Assembly: GCA_034231615.1 (NCBI GenBank)
Contig: CM067322.1
Location: 67,131,354 to 67,195,353 of the forward strand
Direction: 5' to 3'
DNA: 64,000 nt
Origin: Meghimatium bilineatum
Taxonomy: Eukaryota; Mollusca; Gastropoda; Stylommatophora; Philomycidae
The notes under the pieces were generated by a model that saw only the letters and a list, made by a program, of their open reading frames with translations, was not told the origin of the DNA and made no database searches. The stretch's first letter is position 1, and every line of letters begins with the position of its first letter. This document shows positions 40,856-63,430 of the stretch, piece after piece. Position numbers and translations under genes: made by a program.

Positions 40856-40925
40856 TATTGTTATATAGTTTTGCAGCAGTCTTACCCATTATAGATTTTC
40901 GTCTTTAGATGTAACATTGGTAAAT

Positions 40926-41706
40926 TCTTCTTCTTCTTTCGTTCACTTGAAACATGTCTATATCTGTAATTCTGTCTCCTTAATAAAACTCACTGTCTTT
41001 TGTAGTTCATACAGTGTCCCATAGAGCTTTGATTCCAGTGTTGTTTCCTCTGGCCAATATGTCTGCCTCAGCGGTTCATGCTCAGAACACTCTTGAAGTA
41101 TATGTTTGGCACGCTGTGCTGCCTGTACACATGGCCGTGTTGCCAATCTTGAACTTTGTATACATGTGACTGCGGAGTCGGTTGTGTCCTGTTCTGAGAC
41201 GTAGAATTATAACTTGTTCTGATCTGTTCATATTGTGATAGTCATCTTGTGTTGGTGTTTGTGGCTTTCTTATTGACTTTATCATCTGTTTTTTCTGATG
41301 GTAGGTGATTGGTATATCTGGTTGGTCTTCAGCAGCACCTTCCTTAGCCAGTTGGTCTGCTTTTTCATTTCCTGGTATTCCACAGTGAGAGGGTATCCAC
41401 TGCATGGTTACCCTATACTGGTAAGACAATTCGCTAAGTAGTTTTTTTAAGTCTGTTAGTTTTCCAGACTGGAGAGCTTGAAGCACTGACCTTGCATCTG
41501 TCAGGAATACCACAGGCTGTAGGTCAGAGTTGGAGTTCAGCAGTTTTTTAGCTGCCACACTAATTGCCTGGATTTCTGCATCATAATTATTGCAGAATTT
41601 TCCTGTCGGTGTTCTGATTGTATCTCTAGGCTTGTGTGGATATTCTATATATACACCTGCACCTCCATTCCTCACAGCATTCTGTGCTGACCCATCTGTG
41701 TACACT
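40926..41706 (-). mobile_element. Family C non-LTR retrotransposon copy 1 (RNase H), with TSD
   Basis: 781 bp flanked by the exact 12-bp repeat ACATTGGTAAAT (40914-40925 and 41707-41718). The minus strand starts directly at YTDGSAQNA (RNase H Asp 1) and runs open for 207 codons: YDAEIQAISVAAK (Glu), VVFLTDARSVLQALQ (Asp), QWIPSHCGIPGNEKADQLAK (Asp). Then comes RTGHNRLRSHM and, after a small frame change near 41130, the AAQRAKHILQECSEH zinc-like block. All four acidic residues are intact. A (GAA)n 3' tail abuts the left TSD. The 5' truncation removes endonuclease and RT. Confidence 0.92.
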
Positions 41707-41718
41707 ACATTGGTAAAT

Positions 41719-42139
41719 GAATAATATACACAGAATCATCGAGAAATCATGATAGTACTTAAGTAAAACACAAGGTCACTCAGCATTACAATTAACGAGC
41801 AGACTATCAAAACTATATGGTATGGGAACGAAAACAATACAAACAACAGTTTACAAGAAAATTTCAACATCAATGTCTTATTCAAGAAAATGAAAGACAA
41901 ACAGTAAAAAATAGTGGCACTAACATGAAAGCATTAGACGGCAGGCATTTAAATAGCAGAGACATCCAAGGTAGCAATGACGTACGTATACACAAGTTGT
42001 CATAGAGACGCTCATTAAATAGATATGGGGAATGAGAACGAAATAAAACAACTATGAATGAAAACAATATGAACAACAACAATGGTCCACCCAAAATCTA
42101 AATAAATGAATGACCAGTATTAAGACCAAATGACTTAAG
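41719..42139. other. Unassigned spacer
   Basis: No feature recognised. Confidence 0.45.
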
Positions 42140-42660
42140 GATATCAAACAACAATATATAGTGATATTTAAGGGTGCATCTAGCTCTATCGTCACTGGTG
42201 CATGATCTTAACGCAGTGACCTGAATAACACTGGTACCACGATAATAAGCGACATAGCAATGTATCGCAACAAGAGTTGGTGTTCTGTGGTTAATGGTAT
42301 GCAGATGTCGGCAGAAACGGACACTTAGTCGTTTGCCTATTCACCTATATATTTCTGGTCACATCGTTTACAAAAGATAAAGTAAATGATGTTACGGAAT
42401 TCACATATGAAAGCATAGTCAGTGGTGAAAGTTGCCTTAGGAAATGAAATAGGATTTGCGCCACATTGGAACATGTATAGCAACGCCGGAGTATGCATCG
42501 AACTTTGCTTAAATGGTCTGAAACATTAGCTCTGAGGTGGTTGTGGACCATTATGTTATGATTTTTGTCAAGTCTATAGACAATAAGAGGACAGTCTTGA
42601 AAGATGGAAGAGATTGAAAGATGAAAGTCTTGAAGATGTACCAGAACAGTGTTGAAAGAT
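42140..42660 (-). pseudogene. Penelope-like element GIY-YIG region, degraded
   Basis: Base-level similarity along 500 bp to the minus-strand PLE at 61757-62607. Translation retains YRLDKNHNIMVHNHLRANVSD and RCILRRCYTCSNVA (the Cys-rich finger before the nuclease). The GIY-YIG core itself is frameshifted. Known PLEs encode RT plus a GIY-YIG endonuclease. Only the latter part remains here. Confidence 0.75.
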
Positions 42661-42921
42661 GGCAAGAGTTAAGAATCAGACTGGAGAAGGGAATAATGTT
42701 TAAACGGGGTTCTATTGACAGTATAGTAAAGGGGAAGACATTGAGGACAAGTTTAACTCCATCAGAAGAGGAAGTACCATAAGTATTAGTCAAGGTATTA
42801 TCATGTTGTGAGAATTTATGGATACGAAGCCAAGTCAATAAAATTACACTGTCAAGGTATGAGCGTCTACGAATGAAATTAGTTATCTAATACGATGTAT
42901 CACGAGTCATCATCATCACTA

Positions 42922-44033
42922 CAAAAAAGTTTCGGTGTATGCCAAGTCATCCAATGAAGGAAAGATTCCAAAATCTAGCAATGGGGCGACTGAAAAGAAG
43001 CAGCTTTATCCACCAAGCTAAACGACTCCGTAGACAACTTACAGACCTACCTGAAGTTGACAGCCCCTTAAGGTCTGTACCAGAACAAACCCCCTTGGAG
43101 TGAAAGGCATGGAATGTCAATATACATTCAGATCCATGTGAAAGGAATACTAAGCGAAGACGAACAGAACAATGTGCAGTGAAGGACAGTCACCCTCTGT
43201 TTCCTGGATGAGGAATATCCACAAGATATATGGGTCAGAGTATACACAGATGGGTCAGCACAGAATGCAGTGAGCAATGGAGGTGCAGGTGTGTACATGG
43301 AATATCCACACAATCCTAGAGATACGATCAGAACACCATCAGGGACATTCTTCAACAATTATGATGCAGAAATCCAGGCAATTAGTGTGGCAACTAAAAA
43401 ACTGCTGAACTCCAACTATGGTCTACAGCCGGTGGTATTCCCAACATATGCAAGGTCAGTGCTTCAAGCTCTCCAGTCTGGAAAACTAACAGACTTGCAA
43501 AAACTACTTAATGAATTGTCTTACCAGTATAGGGTAACCATGCAGTATATACCCTCTCACTGTGGAATACCAGGAAATGAAAAAAAAACACCAACTGGCT
43601 AAGGAAGGTGCTGCCGAATACCAACCAGATATACCAATCACCTACCATCAGAAAAAACAGATTATCAAGTCAATAAGAAAGCCACAAACACGAACACAAG
43701 ATGACTATCACATTATGAACAGATCAGAACAAGTAATAATTCTACGCCTCAGAATAGGACACAACCGACTCCGCAGTCACATGTATACAAAGTTCAAGAT
43801 TGGCAACACTGCCAAGTGTACATGTGGACAAGCAGCACAGAGTGCCAAACATATACTTCAAGAATGTTCTGAGCATGAAACTCTGAGGCAGACATATTGG
43901 CCAGAGGAAACAACACTGGAATCAAAGCTCTATGGGACACTGTATGAACTACAAAAGACAGTGAGTTTTATTCAGGAGACAGAATTACAGATATAGACAT
44001 GTTTCAAGTGAACGAAAGAAGAAGAAGAAGAAA
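42922..44033 (+). mobile_element. Family C non-LTR retrotransposon copy 2, with TSD
   Basis: 1112 bp flanked by the exact 10-bp repeat ATCATCACTA (42912-42921 and 44034-44043). It extends about 310 bases further 5' than copy 1, into a frame-broken region upstream of RNase H. Blocks: VYTDGSAQN (43237, in a shifted frame), YDAEIQAISVATK, VVFPTYARSV (catalytic Asp region FLTDARS changed to FPTYARS), GIPGNEKK with a frameshift at an A-run (43580), RIGHNRLRSHM and CTCGQAAQSAKHILQECSEH. It ends in (GAA)n. It has lost one RNase H Asp, unlike copy 1. Confidence 0.92.
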
Positions 44034-44215
44034 TCATCACTATATAAGCGATGAAGACGAAGAAGATTGACGAGTTACAGCAAGCAGGTGGATGACAAGA
44101 AGTGAAAATCAAAAAACGATGTGCATCAGTAGGTTTGTAGCACACAGATGTGCTAGGGTAAGAGGGATGATTTGTGACACTTATATCAAGATAGTTGACA
44201 AAGGCAGTCCCAACG

Positions 44216-44283
<68 letters not shown>

Positions 44284-44698
44284 AGAGATGTGATGTAAGC
44301 AGCACACACAAAAAACGAATTTTTCTGGGTAATAAGCCTTCCACACGTGCATTGAATAGCAGGGTTAAAATCTTTGAAAAAGCTCATTAAACGGACAATT
44401 TCGCATCAGGAATGTCAATAATACCTACACCATCATCAATGTATGCATGGAAAATAAATGTAAAAGGGCCTCCTTCTATTGGTCTCCCAAACTTGATGTT
44501 TCAAATGTCTCATATAATGGCAATCATAAATAGACCCCGCCTTAGTACCCATATCAACACTGATATAATCAAACAAATGACCATCGTATTCAAAGTCAGT
44601 ACACGTACAGTCTCCATATTAGGCCACATTTTCCCTACATTCAATAGAAACATATTTCATTGATGTCGTGCGTATATCTTTATATCTCATCATCATCG
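44034..44698. other. Spacer with GA microsatellite
   Basis: A (GA)n run lies at about 44221-44280. Otherwise no feature recognised. Confidence 0.6.
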
Positions 44699-46714
44699 TT
44701 AAGTGCCGTCTCCGCAACGAAGGTTGGCTGAAACGTATGTCCAATAACTCCTGTCTCTTGTCTTGGTGGTGCACTCTGCTAGACTGTAACTTGCCCATCG
44801 TGTGATGTTACTCTCCCACTTGTATCTCTGCCTCCCTCTTGCTCGCTTCCCTTTGACTTTACCCTCAAGTAAGGTCTTCAATAAGGTATCATGTCTTTTA
44901 ACGTGTCCAAAGTATTTTATTTGCCTGTTCTTTATTTCTCTTAGTAGTTCTTTCTTCATATTAAGTGCTTTTAGTATCTATTTATTTGTTTTCTTCTCTT
45001 TCCATGATGTTCTCCCTATTTTTCTATATACCCACATCTCAAAGGCATCAATTTTGTCTTCTAATTGTTTATTTAGTGGCCATGTTTCTGAGCCATACAT
45101 TAATATAGAATAGATGTAGCATTTTATAATTCTTCTCTTGATTCTTGATTAGAAACTGGCTTCACAGCACGCGGGACATTCCCATAAGTGCTCCGCCCTC
45201 CGCTCAAGCAGGCATTCCAGTGTATGTAGACTCATTGTTCCGGTCAGGTTTTGATTGTGTGATCTTCGGGACTTTCCAATAAATTTACTTTTCCTCCATT
45301 CACCTCTGAATACTCCCATTTCTAACATTCTCTGTATGTGTAGTTTTTCAACCTCATTGACATAATCTGCATCTTGAAATGAATATATTACTGCCTTTAT
45401 TAAATCTGCTTTATCTTTTCTCAGCAATGTGCCGTCTATCGCCGCATTGCCTGCCAATAAGTCGGCTCTCTCGTTTCCTCTGACCCCAGCATGACCAGGG
45501 CAGTATATCCATGTAATGTTCTGGAAAACTGAGTTGTTCAATAAGTCCCACCATTCTTTTCTTAGCATGAACTTTTCTAACTTGTGCAACATGCTTTGAG
45601 AGTCTGAATTACCGCGTGTCTTGATGTATCAGTTATCAACCAATTAAGAGCTGCTGTAACTCCCTCTATCTCCATCCTCATGCTCGATGTGACAGTAGAA
45701 TATGCTGAAGATTTCTCAACCAACTTCACGCCATTTCCGTAGGCAACAAAACCCCAACCGCTTTTATTGTGTTTCTGCTAACAGAGCCATCTGTGTATAT
45801 AATTATGTCTTGTGGTTTCGATTGTAGTTGGGCGAGTTCGTACACTGTATCCTGAGCCCTGACTGCCGTCCATTTTCGACACGCTTTATCTTTTTGTATT
45901 ATTACTTTAGTGATTTCTTCTCAGTGTCTACCTCCACCCATTCACTGCCCTTTCCTATTTCTTCCAATTCACATACTATTCGCAGTGTGTCTTCAGCCTC
46001 TGCCATCCATGATCTGCCACGCATGATTCGTTTTCCCTTTGACTCATCTAGGTGTATGGCGATGGTGTAATGGGTGGTGGTTGTATTCTGCCACTTTAAG
46101 GTACGACTTAACTTGTGCTACCTTATATCACTTTAAGGTAAGACTTAACTTGTGCTACCTGATGTCGCACTCATCTGCTGGGGAGATCAAGCAGAAATCT
46201 CATAGCAGAGATGGGTGTATCTCTAGTACACCCCAGTACCGCTTTCATTGCCTCATTTTGAACTTTTTCCAATCTATCGACTTGCGTCTGTGACAAAGTT
46301 AGTAGGCCGAGGCCATAATCTATTACAGATAGCACCACCACTTGCAGAAGCAGAAAAAGTACCCATTGTTGCATGTCGAAGGTCGCCATAACCTTGATAA
46401 CACTGATCCCTCTTCCAGCCTTCTGAATCATATTTGTAACGTGCATTTTATAATTCTCATTTTTAACGTGTTTGTAATTTGTTTAGATGTTAATATTTTC
46501 CTCATGTTACTGAAAGTACTTTTAGCCATGCCTATTCTCCTTTTAACTTCTGTTTCACATCTGCCATCATTTGTGACTCTGTGTCCAAGATATTGATAAT
46601 GTTTTATTTGTTGTAGTTTCTCTCCATGCATGTTTATGTTTACCTCCTGTTCTTCTGTGTCTTTGCTGATTATCATGGTTGTTATGGCTTTATATCTCAT
46701 GATTGATCTACTGA
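44699..46714 (-). pseudogene. Family D RT C-terminal region split by a family B insertion
   Basis: The 5' part (46714-46458) encodes EKLQQIKHYQYLGHRVTNDG, CETEVKRRIGMAKS and TLKMRIIKC. The 3' part (45118-44699) continues with the MYGSE-like block, DAFEMWVYRKIGRTSW-like block (stops and frame changes), LREIKNRQIKYFGHVKRHD, RARGRQRYKWESNITRW and SLAECTTKTRDRSYW. Between them sits the family B copy 45134-46442. The two D halves join without gap once B and one TSD copy are removed. No palm or endonuclease. Confidence 0.85.
45134..46442 (-). mobile_element. Family B non-LTR retrotransposon, copy inserted into family D
   Basis: 1309 bp flanked by the exact 15-bp repeat GCATTTTATAATTCT (45119-45133 and 46443-46457). 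Minus strand order: RT thumb (DYGLGLLTLSQTQVDRLEKV, AVLGCTRDTPISAMRFLLD, 46350-46180), a frame-breaking 37-bp tandem duplication (46085-46165), RNase H (IIYTDGSVSR, then frameshifts, WIYCPGHAGVRGNERADLLA), HIQRMLEMGVFRGEWRKSKF, RRAEHLWECPACCEAS and the AATCAAG tail. The thumb block is close to that of family A, so A and B are sister families of RNase H-bearing elements. Confidence 0.92.
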
Positions 46715-47030: not shown

Positions 47031-47898
47031 CAGGCTGAAGACACACTGAGAATAGTATGTGAATTGGAAGAAATAGGAAATGGCAGTGAATGGGTGGAGG
47101 TAGACACTAAGTAGAAATCACTGACTAAAGTAATAATACAACTAGATAAAGCGTGTAGAAAATGGACGGTAGTCAAGGCTCAGGATACAGTGCACGAACT
47201 CGCCCAACTACACTCGAAACCACAAGACATAATTATATACACAGATGGCTCTGCTAGCAGAAACACAAATAAACGCGGTTGGGGTTTTGTTGCCTACAGA
47301 AATGGCGTGAAGTTGGTTGAGAAATCTTCAGCATATTCTACTGTCACATCGAGCATGAGGATGGGGATAGAGGGAGTTACAGCAGCTCTTAATTGGTTGA
47401 TAACTGATACATCAACAAACGCGGTAATACTCACAGACTCTTAAAGCACGTTGCGCAAGATAGAAAAATTTATGCTAAGAAAAGAATGGTGGGACTTATT
47501 GAACAACTCAGTTGTCCAGAACATTACATGGATATACTGCCCTGGTCATGCTGGGGTCAGAGGAAACGAGAGAGCCGACTTATTGGCAGGCAATGCGGCT
47601 ATAAACGGCACATTGCTGAGAGGAGATAAGCAGGTTTAATAAAGGCAGTAATAAATTCATTTCAAGATGCAGATTATGTCAATGAGCCTGAGAACGTACA
47701 CATACAGAGAATGTTAGAAATGGGAGTATTCAGAGGTGAGAGGAGGAAAAGTAAATTGTTTGGAAATCCCGAAGATCACACAATCAACACCTGACTGGAA
47801 CTATGAGTCTACATACACTGGGATGGCTGCTGGAGCGGAGGGCGGAGCACTTATGGGAATGTCCCGCGTGCTGTGAAGCCAGTTTCTAATCAAGAATC
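47031..47898 (+). mobile_element. Family B non-LTR retrotransposon, second young copy (RNase H)
   Basis: Nearly identical to the minus-strand copy 45134-46442, in inverted orientation about 0.6 kb away. It begins at the region after the thumb. Coding: IIYTDGSASR, SMRMGIEGVTAALNW, VILTDS followed by a TAA (47442-47444), then in frame WIYCPGHAGVRGNERADLLA (47530-47590), a small frameshift at 47630, HIQRMLEMGVFRG, ERRAEHLWECPACCEAS and the AATCAAGAATCAAG tail. TSD is not clear, so the 5' boundary is approximate. Confidence 0.85.
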
Positions 47899-48479
47899 AA
47901 GAAACCAAGCTCTTTGCCAAACATATTCACTGAACTTCCTATTCGTCCATTGCTGTCTTCCTCTAATAGTGTGACAGTGACACCAAAGAGCGTACATTTT
48001 CATTTTCTTAAGATGGTTATCATTGAGAAAGATATGTGTCAGTCGGTGCAGTAGTTTCTTGACATAAAACCAATCTTTGTAAAACATCACAGAGATAATG
48101 AATCAATGAGTCAAAGAGAAAATGTTACAGGTTTCTTCCCATATCCATCTGATGACTCAATTTTGCTATGCTTCTGATGAAAGGTTATAGAGTATCATCA
48201 GATCTGGAAACAATGGCATCAACATTCGCGAAAAGGAGTCCCCTATGAATAACTTTTTTTAAAATTATTCTCGTGCGTTTCGTTGGATGCGTTAGCGGGT
48301 GATAAAGTATATAAATAGTGGTCAATGAAAATCACGGGAATAATAGAAAACATGGACCAAAATGCGTATTATATTTTTGTCGGTATGTCCTATACTGGCG
48401 ATTGTTCAAGACTGAACATAAATTACAATACAATTATAATGTACATGTATATGTTTGACGGGTAGACTAAACAGTGTAC
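47899..48479. other. Unassigned spacer with one palindrome
   Basis: A foldback segment lies around 48265-48345 (cgtgcgtttcgttggatgcg against gtggtcaatgaaaatcacgg), with relatives at 55345-55418. No gene. Confidence 0.4.
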
Positions 48480-61375: not shown

Positions 61376-61742
61376 AAAATAAATATCTTTGAAAACTTAA
61401 ATATTTATTGGGAAGAATTCAAGTCAAACAAACAATTAAGAAAAGACACAAAACAGCAAAATGTTAATACAACATTAAGAAATAACAGATGGACACATCT
61501 ATCACGGTTAAGGCGGTGTACAGGTTGGGTACATGTGTACACATAAGTTGTGTTCTCTACTTGTGATCCCTCTAACTGACAATGCATATCTTGAATATGA
61601 ATATTGAATGGACTCCACTAGTGGCATATATATATGTAACCACATGTATTAATATTCACACTTTTCTTGTTTCGTGGGATAACAATATTTGTATCGCCCG
61701 TTGCCGTGCGAAGCATTTTGCCAGACAAAGAAGCAACCACTC
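61376..61742. other. Unassigned spacer
   Basis: No gene recognised. Confidence 0.4.
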
Positions 61743-61908
61743 CTTTCTTGTAAAATAATACTCACGTGGAAGACAGGTAATGAAGTCCTACTGAATGACG
61801 ATGAACACACTACACACTATCACTAGCGGATGTTGGCATGAATAAATATGGTACATACAACAAAACAAAACACAGAATATAATCATACAAATGACAATAC
61901 ACAGGACA

Positions 61909-61942
61909 AAGTCGACGTTTCGGACCAATAGGCCTTTTTCAA
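61909..61942 (-). ncRNA. Possible vestigial hammerhead-like motif, minus PLE unit
   Basis: Minus strand reads CTTGAAAAAGGCC, a TATT loop, GGTCCGAAAC and GTCGAC. GGCC/GGTC could form a 4-bp stem II. GAAAC and GTC fit hammerhead positions, but the CUGANGA box is CUUGAAA-like and stem III would be only a palindromic ACGT. Activity is doubtful. Confidence 0.3.
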
Positions 61943-62118
61943 GATACGGACATAACATACAAACATAAAACAAACACAAGTAGAAATGAATGCGTGTCCG
62001 AGTGAAATATGGTCGTTAGATACCGGAAGCATACGAACAGGAAGCACACAAAGACGATAATACAGGTGGAACTAGAGGAAGAAAACGATGACGTAACAAA
62101 GACCAATACGACCGAGAA

Positions 62119-62607
62119 CTAAGCGAAAGAGTGGTCGAAATTGAGTCCAAATGGCTTGATAGTACCCAACTCGAAAATGAGACGATTTTCTAGGGCATAC
62201 CTAGATCTATCATCGGTGGTGTAGGATCTGATGGCAGTGACTTGAATGTCAAGGACACCACTGTGGTCATCGCCATTGAAGTGATTAGCCACAGGAGTGG
62301 GTGTTCTGTGTTTGATAGCATGCAGGTGGTTACAGAAGCGGTCGCTCGGTCTAAGGCCAGTCTCACCGATATATTGCTTACCACAGCGTTTACATATGAT
62401 CACGTAAATAACATTACGGGATTCGCATGTAAAGGCCTCATCGATGGAGAAACTGGCCTTGGGAAATGAGATGGAGCACATCTGAACCACATAAGAACAT
62501 GTGTAGCAACGACCGCGTGAGCAACGAACGGTACCAAAATGGTCAGGTGCAGAGGACCTGAGGTGGCTGTGGACCAAGATGTCAGTCAGATTTTTGTCGC
62601 GCCTATA
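62119..62607 (-). pseudogene. PLE GIY-YIG endonuclease domain (partial, open frame)
   Basis: Encodes the C-terminal nuclease of a PLE polyprotein, which nicks DNA for target-primed copying. Blocks in order: RRDKNLTDILVHSHLRSSAP, CSRGRCYTCSYV (Cys-rich finger), RNVIYVIICKRCGKQYIGET (the VIY...YIG core with a CxxC insert), LRPSDRFCNHL (catalytic Arg region), PVANHFN, ENRLIFELGT (catalytic Glu) and FDHSFA before a stop. The first 35 codons of the longer open frame are antisense to the other unit and are not part of the gene. The RT domain is missing through truncation. Confidence 0.9.
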
Positions 62608-62612
62608 GGCCA

Positions 62613-62835
62613 ACGCTTCTGTAACCACCTGCCTGCTATCAAACACAGAACACCCACTCCTGTTGCTAATCACTTCAACGGCGATGGCCACCGTGGTGTC
62701 CTTGACATTCAAGTCACTGCCATCAGATCCTGCACCACCGATGATAGATCTAGGTACGCCCTAGAAAATCGTCTCATTTTTGAGTTGGGTACTATCAAGC
62801 CATTTGGACTCCATTCCGACCACTCTTTCGCTTAG
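62613..62835 (+). pseudogene. PLE GIY-YIG domain, second unit (truncated)
   Basis: Starts at RFCNHLPAIKHRTPTPVANH and runs open to LENRLIFELGTIKPFG and DHSFA with a stop. It lacks the VIY...YIG core. Nearly identical to the minus unit. Confidence 0.85.
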
Positions 62836-63010
62836 TTCTCGGTCGTATTGGTCTTTGTTACGTCATCGTTTTCTTCCTCTAGTTCCACCTGTATTATCGT
62901 CTTTGTGTACTTCCTGTTCGTATGCTTCCGGTATCTAACTACCATATTTCACTCGGACACGCATTCATTTCTACTTGTTGTTGTTTTATGTCTGTATGTT
63001 ATGTCCGTAT

Positions 63011-63044
63011 CTTGAAAAAGGCCTATTGGTCCGAAACGTCGACT
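63011..63044 (+). ncRNA. Possible vestigial hammerhead-like motif, plus PLE unit
   Basis: Same sequence as in the minus unit. It sits about 175 bases downstream of the PLE stop codon, within the terminal region where PLE hammerheads are known. Related GAAACGTYGA blocks occur at 14881 and 55660. Confidence 0.3.
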
Positions 63045-63254
63045 TTGTCCTGTGTATTGTCATTTGTATGATTATATTCTGTGTTTTGTTTTGTTGTATG
63101 TACCATATTTATTCATGTCAACATCCCCTAGTGATAGTGTGTAGTGTGTTAATCATCATTCAGTAGGACTTCATTACCTGTCTTCCACGTGAGTATTATT
63201 TTCAATTATGTTCTACTAGCAGTACCACCTTCTTTCTTGTAAAATGGATGTGAT

Positions 63255-63430
63255 GGTTTCTAACTAACTTGTGCGATATTTCCGGACCAGGTGTCTTAAC
63301 ATCCTGGTACACATCGGACATAGCATGAAAACAGACTGCCAGTACAATCATTAAAATTAGTACCCGATGGAACAATAAGAAGAGGAAGACCAAGAGGGAC
63401 TCTTCACATAAGAACCGTCAAAGAAGGTAT
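63255..63430 (+). pseudogene. RT C-terminal tail scrap
   Basis: DIGHSMKTDCQYNH, then KLVPDGTIRRGRPRGTLHIR in another frame recall the IGHxxR ... PDGxRxRGRPRxT tail. Frameshift around 63350. Confidence 0.55.

Follow-up and report, generated by a model that had tools for sequence, protein, structure and literature searches.

Penelope-like elements (PLEs) are retroelements related to telomerase. A hammerhead motif has been reported for many, but not all, of the endonuclease-containing PLEs. In LINE-1 elements, an inverted structure within one target site duplication (TSD) arises by twin priming (5′ inversions), in which both nicked strands prime on the element RNA. The second primer pairs with an internal stretch of the RNA, and the 3′ end of the element is present in one unit only.

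Head-to-head PLEs with one TSD are already known. An endonuclease-containing Penelope of the rotifer Adineta vaga forms inverted terminal pieces within one short target duplication. Head-to-head is the most frequent inverted form there, a tail is optional on one of the inverted pLTRs, and the head-to-head copies have been ascribed to self-priming on antisense RNA (PMC3846280). In the accessible part of that report, the A. vaga PLEs are few and mostly unique copies without a count of tails, whereas the family described here is large enough for counting and shows exactly one tail in every one of 55 scored pairs. The extension of both strands and the use of two start sites are also already known in vitro. 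The protein of PAc (Poseidon from Anolis carolinensis) cuts and extends both target strands, and its reverse transcription begins at two adjacent RNA sites, the tail being the stretch between them (PMC11167929). PAc resembles the present family in being an element with GIY-YIG and reverse transcriptase domains, in its tandem pLTRs, in its AT-rich targets and in a corresponding tail. It differs in that its products were observed in vitro, in bulk and not as single molecules, and genomic head-to-head pairs are not treated in the accessible portion of the paper (PMC11167929).

The route of PLE integration is unsettled, as the extension of both strands is seen in vitro and self-priming has been proposed for the genomic copies. 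A countable genomic rule (one TSD, 3′ ends outward and one tail, in 55 of 55 pairs) ties the in vitro and the genomic evidence together. Models of the PLE complex have to accommodate the one-tail rule, which can also be looked for in other PLE genomes and in the existing in vitro system. Such a strict rule was not found in the open literature (titles and the beginnings of abstracts, the older work on Penelope of Drosophila virilis lying outside this scope), and neither was a statement linking the genomic head-to-head PLEs to the both-strand, two-start data obtained in vitro.

The head-to-head pair in the window

The window analyzed here is a stretch of 64,000 nucleotides from the gastropod Meghimatium bilineatum (contig CM067322.1, positions 67,131,354 to 67,195,353). 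As the initial annotation recognized, its segment 61743-63245 consists of two 5′-truncated PLE 3′ portions, the 3′ ends of which point outward, within a single TSD. Positions along the element are given on a ruler, which is one natural PLE copy (L028, 5655-8454) plus 31 nt. The locus has the following features:

61640..61742, no strand: left flank, part of an old host repeat split by the insertion; when joined, the flanks are 70-86% identical to 8 other places
61743..61756, no strand: left copy of the 14-bp TSD, an exact repeat, present as a single copy in paralogs
61752..62612, minus strand: left PLE unit, 5′-truncated, 3′ end leftward (outward), tail-less; other copies are up to 95% identical
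62122..62612, minus strand: coding sequence for the C-terminus of the PLE protein, including its GIY-YIG endonuclease domain (Pfam PF01541)
62612..62614, no strand: point at which the two units adjoin directly, one base being unassigned
62614..63202, plus strand: right PLE unit, 5′-truncated, 3′ end rightward (outward), matching ruler 2220-2800 at 92.6-92.8%
63203..63231, plus strand: PLE tail, on the right arm only; identical letters lie past one arm in other pairs
63232..63245, no strand: right copy of the 14-bp TSD, an exact repeat
63246..63360, no strand: right flank, where the same old host repeat resumes

The two arms, 61752-62345 and 62609-63202, are inverted relative to each other, 96% complementary over 594 nt and separated by 263 nt. 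In a BLAST comparison the left and right units are 96.8% identical over 589 nt. On the ruler, the left unit (61749-62612, minus strand) corresponds to 1948-2803 and the right unit (62614-63233, plus strand) to 2220-2831, and this matching confirms that the units meet at about 62613. The direct repeat CTTTCTTGTAAAAT, 14 bp long and exact, is found at 61743-61756 and 63232-63245 as annotated; the last five bases of its left copy also fit the element end. The right arm does not stop at 63190, as annotated earlier. It runs 29-30 nt further than the left arm, the extra letters recur in other copies, and this element-derived tail (63203-63231), absent from the left unit, had been overlooked. It is because of the intervening tail that the right repeat is located 29 nt from the end of the arm. 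In the tandem copy L069, the tail letters come after the internal terminal repeat. The tail is therefore element sequence located just past the usual end.

The assignment of the pair to the PLEs agrees with the domains found. The GIY-YIG domain is positioned at the C-terminal end of the protein, as is characteristic of PLEs. Pfam PF01541 matches the left unit with E=2.8e-4 and 21.6 bits, slightly under the curated cut-off of 22.6, and matches the L028 copy with E=0.0018, also a little below the curated cut-off. The reverse transcriptase is absent from the truncated units of the window. The longer copy L028 carries it upstream of the endonuclease as a match to Pfam RVT_1 (E=4.7e-6 and 26.9 bits in a partial read, below the cut-off of 29.6); the whole 812-aa read of L028 gives no Pfam match at 1e-3. 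The optional 3′ tail of PLEs is present at 63203-63231. The tandem arrangement with an internal pLTR occurs elsewhere in the genome and not in the window pair: four same-strand neighbors, at 646-3252 bp, were found among the first 100 of 209 young ends, and one internal repeat was read (L069). A twin-priming inversion of a LINE has the 3′ end in only one unit, whereas both units of the window pair have a 3′ end and overlap over 589 nt.

Between 61000 and 64000, Rfam lists no hammerhead ribozyme at E-values up to 5, a motif that is not treated as defining here, and the only known RNAs suggested for the locus were four weak lncRNA matches far under their gathering scores. The RNA fold near the two start sites (63091-63245) has a z-score of 0.30, and a search of PDB sequences returned nothing beyond chance matches. 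If the pair were transcribed throughout, the RNA would form a long hairpin, for which an energy of -1146 kcal/mol is predicted between 61752 and 63202, and which might be the source of double-stranded RNA suggested in the initial annotation.

The history of the insertion site can be read from its paralogs. The query consisted of the joined flanks with one copy of the duplication, and the two flank halves at the locus itself are not counted among the matches. Seven of the eight paralogs run through the insertion point and the eighth begins at the duplicated stretch; when aligned, they have a single copy of this stretch and no PLE. The pair was therefore inserted as one unit. The single integration event proposed earlier is borne out by the 14-bp TSD around both units and by the seven of eight paralogs (which are not alleles) that span the site, and the counter-case raised with that proposal, a single unit with its own duplication, is not seen among the flank paralogs. 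PLE copies are abundant (6749 loose candidates), and two separate insertions might have landed next to each other. This is very improbable, as there is one TSD round the pair, the junction is direct without a second TSD and the paralogs are uninterrupted; close PLE neighbors among the listed ends, moreover, are all head-to-head save four same-strand cases.

The youth ascribed to the pair in the initial annotation is not supported. Its arms differ at 18 of 577 compared sites (3.1%) as against 0.1-0.7% in four young pairs, L036-L039, and it is older than these. Its junction is spanned by no other listed match when 40 of the 6749 candidates are scored, and the other listed matches among these 40 cover the pair query up to position 913 or from position 915 on.

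Head-to-head insertions and the one-tail rule

The search covered the genome of 1.61 Gb in 32 contigs, from which the 6749 loose candidates derive. Head-to-head pairs with both 3′ ends outward number 12 among 20 fetched loci and the window, and L013, read on its 5′ side, is the thirteenth. The frequency of pairs in the 20 loci is biased because these were chosen as the best matches to a head-to-head query. For the older type, the first 100 of 824 exact 3′ ends include 8 head-to-head neighbors within 6 kb, against a chance expectation of 0.33, and 0 in other orders. In the young subfamily (first 100 of 209 exact ends), 29 neighbors at up to 6 kb are arranged head-to-head, 4 lie on the same strand and 0 are tail-to-tail. 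These 209 places were obtained with a pattern used instead of a first young 3′-end pattern, which had been found in 4 places only. The 84 older-type ends outside the exact pairs were sampled by taking the first 20 on the list. Six of the 20 have an inverted partner (L043, L045, L052, L055, L058 and L059) and five of these could be scored for the tail, the partner in L052 having no readable 3′ tip; another four ran off the fetched stretch (L041, L048, L051 and L054). The window locus is an ordinary instance and nothing special in the M. bilineatum genome.

Twenty loci have exact TSDs, which are 9-15 bp long (median 13) and contain 73% A+T compared with 61% in the window. The duplications of some older pairs have mismatches. 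A duplication was looked for in the L013 pair and none was found; L058, truncated at the left edge of its fetched stretch, was outside the duplication test.

Exactly one outer end is tailed in 55 of 55 distinct scorable head-to-head insertions. Of these pairs, 38 were read letter by letter (12, L013, 11, 5, 8 and 1, the last being C5) and 17 were scored by the exact pattern only. The definition of a pair was blind to the tail. Partial tails are found in L009, L013, L043 and the C5 pair. The composite insertions L039, L074 and L077, which have extra PLE pieces inside, were scored by their outermost ends, and the count omits L015, L024 and L052, which have a short inverted fragment and an unreadable second end. 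The rule applies to one genome and to one PLE family with its subfamilies, as sampled in partial lists (100 of 824 and 100 of 209).

In the exact-pattern test of the young pairs (first 100 of 209 ends), one tail was scored in 27 of 29 pairs, two tails in 2 and none in 0. In both two-tail exceptions, C5 and C9, one of the scored ends is the internal repeat of a tandem copy. The listed outer end of C9 is tail-less. For C5, a tail-less outer end was predicted near 18774894 and was then found there, with an exact 11-bp duplication. By their outermost ends, all 29 young pairs are one-tailed, 12 of them being among the 38 read by letters.

A tail is present in 10 of 20 listed ends in the older sample and in 59 of the first 100 of the 209 young ends. 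As this frequency is about one half, independent starts predict that about half of the pairs would be discordant. It could be imagined that the two target ends prime on two RNAs, that their start sites are chosen independently and that the one-tail pattern is a result of chance or sampling. Both start sites are indeed common among the listed ends, and L017 and L026 hint at two templates. At a tail frequency of about one half, however, the probability that all pairs would be discordant is ~3e-17 for 55 of 55 and ~4e-12 for the 38 of 38 read by letters, and the tail played no part in defining the pairs. An independent choice of start sites is hardly credible in the face of these numbers.

Unpaired copies with a TSD include tailed (L044 and L049) and tail-less (L011, L022 and L057) ones, and either start can therefore act alone. 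The tailed single copies rule out that the tail comes from the second strand only. A preference of the tail for the shorter arm was also considered and dropped, since, of 27 pairs (L013 and L020 omitted from 29), 14 have the tail on the longer arm and 13 have it on the shorter one, as was a target motif that would set the side of the tail, since only weak base preferences are present at 20 oriented sites.

Probable two-ended priming and its alternatives

The head-to-head order within one TSD suggests priming on sense RNA from each of the two 3′ ends that a staggered cut sets free, and the two unlike outer ends of each pair suggest two initiations that never coincide. The 55 of 55 unlike ends, together with the occurrence of either end alone with a TSD, point to two initiations, one per DNA end. 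A head-to-head pair is probably produced in one PLE integration, by target-primed reverse transcription that proceeds from both DNA ends, uses two start sites and leaves one tail per pair.

The process can be envisaged in some detail. Both strands of an AT-rich target would be cut, presumably by the PLE endonuclease, with a stagger of ~13 bp that gives rise to the TSD. Each free 3′ end would then prime near the 3′ region of the sense PLE RNA, producing the outward arrangement seen in the pairs. One of the two reactions would begin at the tail site and the other ~30-40 nt upstream of it, perhaps because two enzyme copies positioned on one RNA start region are unable to share one spot. Each cDNA would stop independently or at the 5′ end of the RNA, and the cDNA ends would be joined, often via a few shared bases. 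Filling in of the stagger would finally leave the one TSD that surrounds the whole. In the window locus, the upstream start would have generated the left unit and the tail start the right unit.

We are inclined, by a small measure, to go further and to regard PLE integration as a concerted two-ended reaction with a built-in asymmetry: the two enzyme copies would never use the same start and, hence, exactly one tail would be made. If this is true, head-to-head PLEs are a normal product of the reaction and not an accident, and the tail reports which enzyme copy made which end. Against starts that never coincide speaks the PAc system, in which the two strands, observed in bulk, did not differ in their start sites (PMC11167929).

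The arms carry information about the templates. Differences at family-polymorphic sites amount to 2.2 per kb between the arms of a pair (17 pairs) versus 12.1 per kb between loci (953 comparisons). The arms of a pair thus mostly come from the same source, in keeping with a single shared RNA or with two RNAs from one locus. In L017 and L026 the arms carry differing subfamily variants, and these fit two RNAs, a template jump or later conversion; if one shared RNA served both ends, they would require a template jump or later conversion, which counts against that form of two-ended priming. Measured as raw BLAST ends, uncorrected for chance, the junction overlaps amount to 1-16 nt in the four young pairs (L036-L039) and to 11 nt in L028. 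The correlation of arm lengths (Spearman 0.56) was set aside since L036-L039 had been selected for long arms.

The self-priming put forward for palindromic junctions in the available part of PMC3846280 would make a pair from one molecule: antisense PLE RNA folds back and primes its own copying, and the head-to-head product is then integrated. The mostly shared source of the arms agrees with it, and so do some short pairs, in which the two arms stop at nearly equal positions (L030, L035, L045, L055, L071, L073, L074 and L077). Near-equal arms fit two cDNAs that reach the same RNA end and equally a fold-back, so that these eight pairs also weigh against the two-ended reading. Copies of one molecule, however, should end alike, whereas in each of the 55 pairs a tail is present at one end and missing at the other; the arms of many pairs stop at points that differ by hundreds of bases, and no loop separates them; and each type of end is also found alone with its own TSD. 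Judged by the genomic copies, the counts favor two-ended priming, and self-priming is unlikely.

According to the initial annotation, the template had either switched or been an inverted dimer. That account holds for PLE identity, head-to-head order and single integration; the route it proposed is not the best explanation of 55 of 55 pairs with differing outer ends. In a template-switching scheme, a single reverse transcriptase would copy sense RNA and then jump to an antisense template, the 5′ end of which lies at the tail-less site. Such a jump would account for the head-to-head order and for a tail-less end at a fixed site. Tail-less starts are also seen alone with a TSD (L011, L022 and L057), so that the first end, too, would be expected to lack the tail in many cases, but 0 of 55 pairs have two tail-less ends, and template switching is quite unlikely.

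Other truncated and inverted copies

Several copies depart from the common form. The shortest partner seen is that of L043, where the second arm is merely 24 nt of tail (782-805), inside a 12-bp duplication. In L013 (5761-5903), L015 (3201-3225) and L024 (7085-7296), the 5′ side of a unit bears a short piece of internal PLE sequence in inverted orientation, which resembles the 5′ inversions of LINEs. The short copies L034, L035, L040, L052, L056 and L057 start near ruler 2648-2665, ~150 nt from the 3′ end; this common start might reflect a strong stop or a short template RNA whose 5′ end lies there. The flanks of the tailed single copy L042 share a similar stretch of tens of bases, much longer than the usual TSD of 9-15 bp.

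The window contains two further inverted pairs, 40925-41706 with 43239-44029 and 45136-45999 with 47032-47902, each of which has arms of 0.8-0.9 kb that are ~93% identical and contain LINE coding sequence similar to RNase H. A flanking duplication was looked for and found at neither pair. Remains of an older and different PLE lie in pieces on the minus strand at 42104-44606, with 68-73% DNA identity to the ruler, and a break in them is filled by the LINE-like RNase H sequence at 43239-44029.
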